A program made the translations under genes and the position numbers. A stretch of DNA of 64,000 bases from PVC group bacterium (GTDB lineage Bacteria; Verrucomicrobiota; Kiritimatiellia; CAIKKV01; CAITUY01), in assembly GCA_945870225.1 (NCBI GenBank), contig CAMBRF010000003.1, positions 62,001-126,000 on the forward strand, in the 5' to 3' direction. The stretch's first letter is position 1. Every line of letters begins with the position of its first letter. Positions 20,572 to 55,156 of this stretch are shown one piece after another. The notes beneath the pieces were generated by a model. The model ran no database searches, had not been told where the DNA came from, and worked only from the letters and a program-made list of their open reading frames with translations.

Positions 20572-21276
20572 ATGGGATTTATCAAAGAGCTTAAAAAGGG
20601 ATTATGGGATGAGATCCCGGTGTTTCGCGTGGTTCTGGGCATGTGCCCCACCCTGGCGGTGACAACCTCGCTGATGAACGGCATCGGGATGGGGATCGCG
20701 GCCACCTTTGTTCTGATTTGCTCGAATGTCATGGTGGCGGCCCTGCGTAACGTCATTCCCGACAAGGTTCGCATTCCGGCCTTTATCGTTATTGCCGCCA
20801 CCTTTACAACCGTCACGGACCTCGGAATGAACGGATTCGCCCACGAACTGCATCGGAACCTGGGGATTTTCATTCCTTTGATCGTGGTGAATTGCATCAT
20901 TCTGGGTCGGGCGGAAGCTTTTGCCGCGAAAAACACCGTGTGGCTGTCGCTCGCCGACGCCATTGGGATGGGGATAGGATTTACCATCGCACTCATGGTG
21001 CTCGGCAGTATCCGTGAAGTCATTGGCAACGGCACGCTGACGCTTTGGACGGGAATCGCGTGGAACGTCCCCGGAATGCATCCCATGCTGCTGTTGATTC
21101 TGGCCCCCGGCGGCTTTGTCACGCTGGGCCTTGTGCTGGCCCTCATGAACCGGATCGAAATGAAGCTTGCCGCCGGCAAAGGCAAAGCCTACAGCCCGCC
21201 ACTGGAACTGGATTGCCGCCATTGCGTCATCTGCAAGTGGGGATCACCGACAACAAGCAAGACTGACGCTCTATAG
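20572..21276 (+). CDS. rnfE: Rnf complex subunit E with a Cys-rich C-terminal tail
   Basis: This 234-aa membrane protein is paralogous to RnfA: N-terminal K-K-G-L-W-D-E-I-P-V-F-R-V-V-L-G-M-C-P-T-L-A-V-T and V-V-N-C-I-I-L-G-R-A-E-A-F-A. The first half-helix Cys is in the expected place for the shared intramembrane cluster. The last 35 residues form a soluble tail containing D-C-R-H-C-V-I-C-K-W, a C-x2-C-x2-C arrangement that could bind metal and is not needed for the six-helix core. Last gene of the operon, 2 nt behind rnfG. Confidence 0.93.
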   Translation: MGFIKELKKGLWDEIPVFRVVLGMCPTLAVTTSLMNGIGMGIAATFVLICSNVMVAALRNVIPDKVRIPAFIVIAATFTTVTDLGMNGFAHELHRNLGIFIPLIVVNCIILGRAEAFAAKNTVWLSLADAIGMGIGFTIALMVLGSIREVIGNGTLTLWTGIAWNVPGMHPMLLLILAPGGFVTLGLVLALMNRIEMKLAAGKGKAYSPPLELDCRHCVICKWGSPTTSKTDAL

Positions 21277-21325
21277 GGAGGGAACGCATGATGTGCGCCG
21301 CGGACGGCGACACGCCGTCCCTCCC
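21276..21325. repeat. Palindromic element, family A, intergenic copy
   Basis: This 50-nt element is bounded by GGGAGGG and CCCTCCC and contains a second perfect hairpin, GGACGGCG-ACA-CGCCGTCC (21302-21320). It starts at the last base of rnfE. A second 50-nt copy, differing at about four positions, is at 52972-53021 inside a gene. It could fold after the rnf transcript, but there is no T run for intrinsic termination. Confidence 0.8.
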
Positions 21326-52339: not shown

Positions 52340-55156
52340 ATGCCGCCCATGAATCTACGCACCAAGAAATGGTTATGGGTTTCCGGTTTATTCCTGTTTC
52401 TTTCCCTGCTGTCCGCCGCATCTTTCTGGGACGTCCTTTCGGACCCCGACCAGGTTCTGGCCTTCAACGACGGCAACATTGAATTTGCCCTATCACCCGC
52501 CTATCGCTTCCCTGACTGCTTGTTCAGCGCCTGGGACAACCAGTTCTTTTTGGGAACCGGCGGAGGGGCGGTTCCTTTGACCGTGACCGCCATCGGCGAA
52601 ACGGTGGGAGCCCTCTTCGCCCGCCGTGAGGGGCAGGCCCTTATTCTCGCCCTCTGTGGTCTGGCGCTCTACTGGACCATGCGGCAATACGGATTTGGAC
52701 GATCTTCATCAGCCTTGACGGCCGCCATCGGCATCTCAGCCGGCTGGTCCCATAATTTTGCCGTCACTGGACTGGCGGTCCGCCCCATTGCGCTGGCGTT
52801 TACGGCACTCGCGCTGGGCTTCGCGGAACGCGGCCGACAAACGCACGGCTGGCTGGCCTACGCCATCGCGGGGGCGTGCCTGGGCCTGGCGATTTCCGAG
52901 GTGCCCGACGTGGGAGCCATTCTCGCCATCGCCTCAGCCGTTGTTTTCTGGTGGACGCATGTGACGGGAACGGGAGGGCGCGCATGCTGCGCGCCGCGGA
53001 CGGCGACACGCCGTCCCTCCCACGATGACGCCCCTGCATGGGCAGGAGAACTTGCCCCGGCCGAACTTAGCCCCGAGTCTGCCGTCTCAGGTCTTCATGC
53101 CATGGCCCGCCGTCTGCCGTCGGTCTTCCTCCGATTCGCCCTCTATGTCGCGTTCAGCGTTCTTCTAGCCTGGCAAATGATCAGCGTGATGTTCGCCACC
53201 CAAATTCAGGGCGTCACCCAGGGGGTCGGGGAAAGCCCCGAAGCCCGATATGCATGGGCTACTCAGTGGAGCATTCCTCCTGCCGAAAGCTGGAACATCG
53301 TCTCGGGAAATTACTTTGGAAGTTCCATGCGTTCGGAAACATCACCCTACTGGGGCCGACTGGGTCGTAGCGAGGGATGGGAGCAGACCAAACCAGGAAC
53401 CAGAAACTTCAGCATGACAGGATGGCACCTGGGCACTGTAGCCTGCATTTTATTGCTCGGCCTGTTTGTCTTCACGTTGCGCGGGGGGTTTAAAAACGCC
53501 AACTGGAGCCGGGGCGAGGTCTCCCCTGTTCAAACGCCCTATCCCTTTGCCCATCCAAAAGCGTTCACCTTGATGATCTTCCTGGGTTGTGCCTTCTCCA
53601 TGATGCTCATGTGGGGCAAGTACTTCCCGCTTTACAGACTTTTCTGGTCGTTGCCCTATATCAATACCATCCGCAACCCCGAAAAATGGAACGGGCCTTT
53701 CACCCTCTTTGCCATTCTCGGAATCGCCTTCATCCTGGACCTTCTATTCCGCAGTCTGGCCGGAAAAAAAACCGCGGCCGGTTCATGGCTGACAGGAGAC
53801 AACAATGAAGAACCATCAACCCTAACACAGGCTTTCTCTTCTTCCCTCTTCTGGTCCGGCATTGGGATGGCAATGCTTGCTTTGCTGATTCTTTTGGGAA
53901 CGGCTGCCAATCAAACCTCGTTTCTTGAAAAGCTGACCAGCGAGGGCTATGGAGCGGGAGCGGGGATTGCCTATGACAATGCCATGGCCGCCTGTGTAAA
54001 GGTTCTTATTATCAGCGGACTGTTTTCGGCTCTTGTGGTGTTTTTTTTCAGGGCCCGGCCTGCCCATAAAAACGTCCAGGCCCGGACCAAGAAAGCACTG
54101 AAAGGCAAGTCCAGCCCTCCCGATTCATCTGCCCGTCTTTCAACGTCGACGATCACCTGTTTATTGGCCGTCCTGGCCATCCTCGCCCTTGGCGACCTTT
54201 TCTCGGACAACCGGCCCTATGTGGCAGGGCACAAATACAAACAATCCCTGGCGCCTAACCCTCTGACCGATTTTCTCGACACCCACACCACCGGAGGCCG
54301 ACTGAAATTGATGCCGCCCCAACATCCGCTACTCAACAACTTGAGGATGACTCAATTGCAGGTCAAGGGATACGACCTCTTTGACCCCGTCAGTGTCTCG
54401 CGGATGCCGGCTGACTACGATGCGTTCTTCAAATCCATGGAGAAGAAACCCCTTCGTCTTTGGGAACTTGGATCCATCAGGTATTTTCTTACTCTTCCCG
54501 GTGCAGTCGACGAGTTGAACAAAACGGATGGCAGGCGCGGCCGGTTTGTCGAACGGCTGGCTCTCGGGGTGGGCGTGGTCAACAACACCTATGTGCCAAC
54601 TCTTTCAGCCCCGGCCAATCAACGCTATCTCCGCGTGGTTGAGTTTACGGGCGCCATGCCGAAGTATCGTCTCGTCACCAATATCACCACCGTCGCCGAC
54701 ACGCCAGCAGGCAATGAGAACGTTCTAAAACAACTGGCAGACTCAAGTTTTGAGCCATCTTTGGAGATAATCCTCCAATCACCAATCACCAATCTCCAGT
54801 CACCCATCCCCCCCTCCCCCTCGCCCCCCTCTTCTATCACAGTCCTCCGTGAGACCCCGATGGAGGTGCGCCTGCACGTCACAGCGAACCAGCCCTGTGT
54901 CTTGGTACGTTCAACCAAATACGACCCCAACTGGATGGCGGTTCTGGACAACCAGCCTATTCCGCTTCTCCGAGCCAACTATCTCTTTCAAGCCGTTCAG
55001 GTTCCGGGAGGAAGCCATGAAATTGCACTCTCATATCGTCCCAGCCTCAAGGCCTTGAAGGTATCAGTCACCACCCGGATTGCCTTGATTCTTATGCTGG
55101 TTATCTGGGGCTTGAAGGAGAAGTTCTGGGGTGCAAAGCACATGGAGCCGGCCTGA
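52340..55156 (+). CDS. Large YfhO-like multi-pass membrane protein
   Basis: This is a 938-aa membrane protein with about 12-14 helices and a C-terminal soluble domain. The arrangement resembles the YfhO/glycosyltransferase-C family of polyprenyl-phosphate-sugar transferases. The late L-V-R-S-T-K-Y-D-P-N-W-M-A and L-S-Y-R-P-S-L-K segments are of the YfhO C-terminal type. It contains at least three unusual inserts: family A (residues about 211-228), family B (388-398) and a proline-rich low-complexity tract (811-834). Function in surface glycan or lipoprotein decoration is inferred from neighbours. Confidence 0.65.
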   Translation: MPPMNLRTKKWLWVSGLFLFLSLLSAASFWDVLSDPDQVLAFNDGNIEFALSPAYRFPDCLFSAWDNQFFLGTGGGAVPLTVTAIGETVGALFARREGQALILALCGLALYWTMRQYGFGRSSSALTAAIGISAGWSHNFAVTGLAVRPIALAFTALALGFAERGRQTHGWLAYAIAGACLGLAISEVPDVGAILAIASAVVFWWTHVTGTGGRACCAPRTATRRPSHDDAPAWAGELAPAELSPESAVSGLHAMARRLPSVFLRFALYVAFSVLLAWQMISVMFATQIQGVTQGVGESPEARYAWATQWSIPPAESWNIVSGNYFGSSMRSETSPYWGRLGRSEGWEQTKPGTRNFSMTGWHLGTVACILLLGLFVFTLRGGFKNANWSRGEVSPVQTPYPFAHPKAFTLMIFLGCAFSMMLMWGKYFPLYRLFWSLPYINTIRNPEKWNGPFTLFAILGIAFILDLLFRSLAGKKTAAGSWLTGDNNEEPSTLTQAFSSSLFWSGIGMAMLALLILLGTAANQTSFLEKLTSEGYGAGAGIAYDNAMAACVKVLIISGLFSALVVFFFRARPAHKNVQARTKKALKGKSSPPDSSARLSTSTITCLLAVLAILALGDLFSDNRPYVAGHKYKQSLAPNPLTDFLDTHTTGGRLKLMPPQHPLLNNLRMTQLQVKGYDLFDPVSVSRMPADYDAFFKSMEKKPLRLWELGSIRYFLTLPGAVDELNKTDGRRGRFVERLALGVGVVNNTYVPTLSAPANQRYLRVVEFTGAMPKYRLVTNITTVADTPAGNENVLKQLADSSFEPSLEIILQSPITNLQSPIPPSPSPPSSITVLRETPMEVRLHVTANQPCVLVRSTKYDPNWMAVLDNQPIPLLRANYLFQAVQVPGGSHEIALSYRPSLKALKVSVTTRIALILMLVIWGLKEKFWGAKHMEPA
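52972..53021. repeat. Palindromic element, family A, in-gene copy
   Basis: This 50-nt copy, 46/50 identical to 21276-21325, has outer GGGAGGG/CCCTCCC arms, an inner CGCGCATGCTGCGCG and GGACGGCG-ACA-CGCCGTCC. It is read in frame inside the YfhO-like gene as G-R-A-C-C-A-P-R-T-A-T-R-R-P-S, a Cys/Arg-rich insert in an extramembrane loop. Confidence 0.85.
53501..53531. repeat. Palindromic element, family B, in-gene copy
   Basis: AACTGGAGCCGGGGCGAGGT and TCTCCCCTGTT correspond to family B with an inverted centre. It is read in frame in the YfhO-like gene as N-W-S-R-G-E-V-S-P-V-Q, lying just after a membrane helix. Confidence 0.65.
54772..54837. repeat. CACCAAT/C-rich low-complexity tract in the YfhO-like gene
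   Basis: Repeated CACCAATC units pass into a run of C and CCCCCTC blocks. It is read as S-P-I-T-N-L-Q-S-P-I-P-P-S-P-S-P-P-S-S. It divides the protein's C-terminal domain and is unlike the surrounding codon use. Confidence 0.7.

Follow-up and report, generated by a model that had tools for sequence, protein, structure and literature searches.

A probable REPIN-like palindromic element, located mainly behind genes, is inserted in frame in a YfhO-like gene of a PVC group bacterium

A 50-nt palindromic repeat is present inside the gene for a large YfhO-like membrane protein in a 64,000-nt stretch of DNA from a PVC group bacterium. This whole stretch is referred to as the window. A second copy in the window is intergenic. 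The locus raises the question of what kind of element can be spacer DNA at one site and protein-coding sequence at another. The features are as follows.

20572..21276, plus strand: gene 5' of the second copy; its TAG stop codon ends in the G with which the element begins
21276..21325, plus strand: second window copy, intergenic; 46/50 identical to 52972-53021 (4 positions differ)
52340..55156, plus strand: host gene, YfhO-like membrane protein of 938 aa (Pfam YfhO); the reading frame is open across the element
52972..53021, plus strand: probable REPIN-like element of 50 nt, within the YfhO-like gene and in its frame; codes for GGRACCAPRTATRRPS and, with two part codons, covers residues 211-228
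52972..52976, plus strand: 5' tag GGGAG, paired with 53017-53021
52977..52995, plus strand: hairpin B, GGCGCGCA-TGC-TGCGCGCC; 8-bp stem and 3-nt loop, compensatory changes in one pair (C-G to G-C)
52996..52997, plus strand: spacer GC of 2 nt, from the fold
52998..53016, plus strand: hairpin A, GGACGGCG-ACA-CGCCGTCC; 8-bp stem and 3-nt loop, compensatory changes in two pairs (G-C to A-U)
53017..53021, plus strand: 3' tag CTCCC, complement of the 5' tag

The sequence at 52972-53021 is the 50-mer GGGAGGGCGCGCATGCTGCGCGCCGCGGACGGCGACACGCCGTCCCTCCC. A 30-nt core is identical between the two window copies, while the chance expectation is 0. The earlier note had described a nested palindrome. The palindromy and the match between the two copies were confirmed, but the fold is not nested. 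It is a symmetric three-way junction, in which a 5-bp outer stem (GGGAG/CTCCC) closes two adjacent hairpins. As single-stranded DNA, the element is predicted to fold at -24 kcal/mol (z = -4.8), which none of the shuffled sequences equals. When element copies are arranged by the geometry 5+(8-3-8)+2+(8-3-8)+5, 95.7% of the cells are paired, versus 37-56% with the partners slid. Both hairpins show compensatory changes, contributed by same-design copies in other genera (G058 and G067) and by variant copies in the own genome. Changes on both sides of a pair occupy 11 cells, versus 2.3 in shuffles and 0-4 with the partners slid. This covariation comes from a small, related set of copies and is supportive of the fold, short of decisive. 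G-U changes are few among the copies. The tag is GGAG (GGGAG) in nearly all of them. Rfam gave no match around the element.

The own genome (G000) is a 2.70-Mb draft of 54 contigs, 83.6% complete. A genome-wide search revealed that the two window copies belong to a dispersed family. BLAST returned at least 48 element matches (40 scored among 54 candidates), and the core hairpin was found with two mismatches or fewer at 45 sites, against 9 for the reversed control. The draft contains at least 45 copies or pieces of the element. Near-identical copies are spread over many contigs. In aligned copies the flanks are unrelated and the ends are sharp at GGGAG and CTCCC. No element copy was found in the viral contigs and plasmids searched.

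The placement of the copies was judged with a simple home-made gene caller based on codon usage. Among 46 copies or pieces, 26 are in unidirectional spacers, 13 in convergent spacers, none in divergent spacers, 2 at contig edges and 5 inside predicted ORFs. Spacers between genes therefore hold 39 of the 46. Divergent spacers make up 38% of the intergenic bases in the window, and the absence of all 39 copies from them has a probability of about 1e-8. Copies crowd the 3' ends of genes, within tens of bases. This placement agrees with that published for REPs (PMC3733652). The supply of stop codons by REPs is also described (PMC3733652), and the TAG stop at 21276 overlaps the second window copy by one base. 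A gene for a DNA topoisomerase VI subunit A-like protein (Pfam TOP6A; L010:1440-2738, contig C13) lies directly downstream of another copy.

The flanks are mildly biased, toward CC.A. on the left and AARA on the right. No target duplication of 2 bp or more rises above shuffles in the aligned copies. A 1-bp duplication is in weak excess (11/28, p about 0.02), and we do not claim it.

The copy in the YfhO-like gene is an in-frame, translatable insertion, as the earlier note proposed, and the frame of 938 aa stays open. Residues 211-228 are TGGRACCAPRTATRRPSH. They are located in a loop that is about 40 residues shorter in six YfhO-like homologues from relatives (identity 42-52% across the full alignment). 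The element supplies 16 whole codons and two part codons of this difference, and the remainder is variable loop. No homologue carries these residues without the palindrome. Neither of the two outcomes that the earlier note named as refutations occurred, since the genome also has many other copies. In the predicted structure, residues 212-244 are unstructured (pLDDT < 50) between confident helices at 189-212 and 245-290. A second loop of the same protein, encoded at about 54800-54870 of the window, contains short repeats LQSPITNLQSPIPPSPSPPSS and is slightly longer than in homologues.

Only three copies are convincingly intragenic. They are in the genes for the YfhO-like protein, PriA and a 374-aa membrane protein, the last of which has matches in 28 of the 58 genomes searched, the own genome counted. 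The three copies share strand and frame, and each yields GGRACCAPRTATRRPS. If the six frames were equal, the chance of this agreement would be 1/36. At the variable loop position the genic copies have C or T, whereas A, which is common elsewhere, would give TGA in that frame. Since a bare insertion of 50 nt shifts the frame, keeping it open would take one extra base or the loss of two. In PriA, the copy follows the Pfam 3'BD domain (residues 6-101) and precedes the DEAD domain. The shared peptide is absent from homologues of PriA and of the membrane protein, and in both alignments, as in that of YfhO, the insertion falls at a loop.

Several other candidates were rejected. Two copies called inside genes by the simple gene caller were set aside, as the element is upstream of the Pfam domain in one (L056) and at the end of a weak ORF without Pfam match in the other (L002). 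Long ORFs over the copies in L005, L006, L007, L010 (minus strand), L011, L016, L017, L020 and L026 are not considered real genes, as they have no Pfam match and codon usage favours their neighbours.

The loops of PriA and of the membrane protein contain other palindromes in related genomes. In an alignment of PriA from 30 genomes, the insert falls in the linker that joins the 3'-DNA-binding part to the winged-helix part, and this linker is short in most of the others. With the insert it has 61 residues, versus about 27 in E. coli PriA. The PriA linker carries an in-frame 91-nt palindrome of the CCCTCACCCCAACCCTCTCCC type in G004 and G001, and an in-frame AT-rich palindrome in G005. Another PriA site, shortly ahead of Walker A by a few residues, is occupied by in-frame palindromes of the CCCTCACCCCAACCCTCTCCC-type and AT-rich kinds in G005 and G001. 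The PriA proteins of G005 (L183) and G001 (L185) are 877 and 835 residues long, and each has palindromic inserts in frame at two separate places. In G009 and G014, the loop of the membrane protein is occupied by a further, different palindrome. Each of these palindromes is multicopy in its own genome.

PriA was at first suspected to be a unique hotspot. Further apparent in-frame captures, judged by eye, were found in an RHS-repeat protein (L255) and an uncharacterised 614-aa ORF (L251) of G005, on contigs C122 and C149, and in an O-antigen-polymerase-like protein of G004 (L245, contig C55). They point to permissive loops in general. Since other genes of G004 and G005 hold such captures, PriA is probably one permissive host among several. 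A stronger claim would be that in this lineage certain loops, above all the two sites in PriA, the replication-restart helicase, repeatedly capture unrelated translatable palindromes in frame and that at least some of these are kept for altering the protein or the mRNA, beyond mere tolerance. We regard this as improbable.

The own genome also offers a canonical REPIN with its RAYT for comparison. A RAYT gene is present on contig C7 (G000:C7:26699-27691), with an NCBIfam REP_Tyr_transpos match below the curated cut-off. GGTAG-tagged inverted hairpins with 8-bp stems and 3-nt loops flank this gene on either side and also occur within its frame. This GTAG REPIN has 12 matches in the genome, mostly at its RAYT locus. 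At the same locus, a single ORF of 469 aa (L123:2118-3524; G000:C7:26117-27523) joins a shikimate kinase and the RAYT transposase via in-frame GTAG REPINs KVDGASRPVSSTDTSRDGSS, and another REPIN is in frame within the RAYT domain. On contig C29, a RAYT-like gene (L121:2534-3652) lies between 24-nt inverted repeats starting GGGGTCAC, which fit the GGGGWSAS consensus of "TIRtrons" (PMC3733652). An IS200-like Y1 ORF on C7 (L122:3584-4763) has at its borders 26-nt inverted repeats and a 28-nt tandem repeat CGGGCAAGCCGGCAGGTGGATAATCAAG.

The three Y1 genes of the own genome have ends other than those of the element. No element copy lies within about 1.5 kb of any Y1 or RAYT gene in the draft assemblies of G000 (83.6% complete) and of G013, G016, G058 and G067, the four relatives with the full element. 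In G016, GGAG-tagged palindromes flank a RAYT match on both sides, with longer hairpin loops. These palindromes suggest that GGAG can serve as a RAYT tag.

It is likely that the 50-mer is a REPIN-like miniature mobile element, spread as single-stranded DNA by a Y1 transposase acting in trans, with genic strays tolerated in protein loops. The observations behind this explanation are the copy number, the anatomy, the covariation, the placement, the in-frame insertion, the absence from homologues and the different palindromes at the same loops in relatives. Points against it are the GGAG tag, the failure to find a RAYT next to the element in the incomplete drafts, and the frame shift expected of a bare 50-nt insertion. 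The element would be composed of two REP-type hairpins, each preceded by the GGGAG tag and inverted to one another. We infer from this anatomy that it most likely moved as single-stranded DNA under a Y1 (HUH, RAYT-type) transposase, inserting without target duplication of 2 bp or more. Surviving copies would be mostly just 3' of genes, where they do least harm. A genic copy would persist only if its net length kept the frame and the loop was permissive. It would then be translated, as the open and conserved frame suggests, into a short, probably unstructured and presumably near-neutral insert. The YfhO-like copy in the window would be one of three such genic survivors.

Dispersed, near-identical copies with terminal inverted repeats of 5-7 bp could also represent a MITE, mobilised by an ordinary DDE transposase through the short repeats GGGAGGG/CCCTCCC. 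However, the repeats are shorter than the 15-30 bp given for MITEs (PMC3733652), no target-site duplication of 2 bp or more rises above shuffles, and both the internal double hairpin with its covariation and the REP-like placement speak against such an origin, which we consider improbable. Somewhat more probable, though still unlikely, is a selected RNA element kept behind genes for protection of transcript 3' ends or for attenuation, with the genic copies as rare strays. The strong fold and the concentration of copies near gene 3' ends, with none in divergent spacers, are consistent with this. Nevertheless, avoidance of promoters and genes yields the same pattern without function, and the scarcity of G-U changes and the lack of an Rfam match argue against a selected RNA. 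Such a role is compatible with the REPIN-like explanation.

The earlier note saw a resemblance to Rickettsia palindromic elements but assigned the repeat to a different sequence family. The likeness holds for the in-frame, stop-free insertion in unrelated proteins (YfhO-like, PriA and the 374-aa membrane protein), and priA is a target in Wolbachia as well. It does not extend to habit or anatomy, as the copies are mostly outside genes and the structure is that of a REPIN. The separate family is also upheld. In RPE-4 and RPE-6, which are CGTC-tagged REPs, the terminal tag CGTC (or TGTC/CCTC) is next to a stem that begins with A-T pairs, and there is a CCA tail, whereas the stems here begin with G-C, have no CGTC next to them and are unrelated in sequence. 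Actual membership in the RPE/WPE group is thus very improbable. An ordinary protein sequence that is palindromic by chance, or an assembly artefact, has a negligible probability, given many near-identical copies on many contigs with 0 expected and one peptide, missing from homologues, that recurs in PriA and a membrane protein.

Translated palindromes are already known from Rickettsia (RPE), Wolbachia (WPE) and Opitutus (intragenic REPs). Less familiar is the repeated capture of unrelated palindromes by one permissive loop. As far as the searched literature goes, three things are new: a REPIN-like family with a GGAG tag, the occurrence of its strays in one shared frame in three proteins, and the fact that the same loops of PriA and of a membrane protein have captured unrelated palindromes more than once. 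Mobile palindromes are usually treated as spacer DNA, while here a spacer population and translated strays are present in one genome. Where orthologous genes of relatives have different palindromes at one loop, nature provides a replicated test of the way in which mobile non-coding DNA turns into protein sequence. The family also raises the question of whether a tag other than GT(A/G)G is acceptable to RAYT transposases.

Compared with known systems, the element is best classified as a REPIN-like variant, and we file it neither as a REP nor as a Rickettsia palindromic element. The RPE and WPE elements (PMC4224334) are likewise palindromes that lie in unrelated genes without a frame shift or a stop codon, and the priA of Wolbachia is among the genes with in-frame palindromes (PMC4224334). 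They differ in sequence and in the CGTC tag, and the present element is predominantly extragenic in a host not known as an endosymbiont. The GTAG REPIN of the same genome shares the 5-nt tag, 8-bp stems, 3-nt loops, inverted doublets and in-frame occurrence in coding sequence, while its stem sequences are different and its spacer is 13 nt.

The REPIN/REP and RAYT (TnpA-REP) systems (PMC3116915, PMC3733652, PMC3686654, PMC8266576) have two close inverted hairpins with 8-bp stems, each behind a G-rich tag. They too occur in multiple copies, most of them outside genes near 3' ends and none in divergent spacers, and show compensatory changes. The strict REP tag is GT(A/G)G (PMC3686654), in contrast to GGAG here; REPs number hundreds of copies rather than tens, and they have a cognate RAYT, while none was found adjoining the element. 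Because of the tag and the lack of a RAYT beside it, the element is called only REPIN-like. In recB, two Xanthomonas species have REPs at roughly matching positions (PMC3733652). The richest case of intragenic GTAG repeats is Opitutus terrae, a PVC bacterium (PMC3733652). Although the tag and sequence are different there, and here just 3 of about 46 copies lie within genes, the intragenic REPs of Opitutus terrae and others (PMC3733652) are similar in their PVC-group host, in REP dimers that add about 20-30 residues to ORFs, and in the presence of replication and repair genes among the targets.
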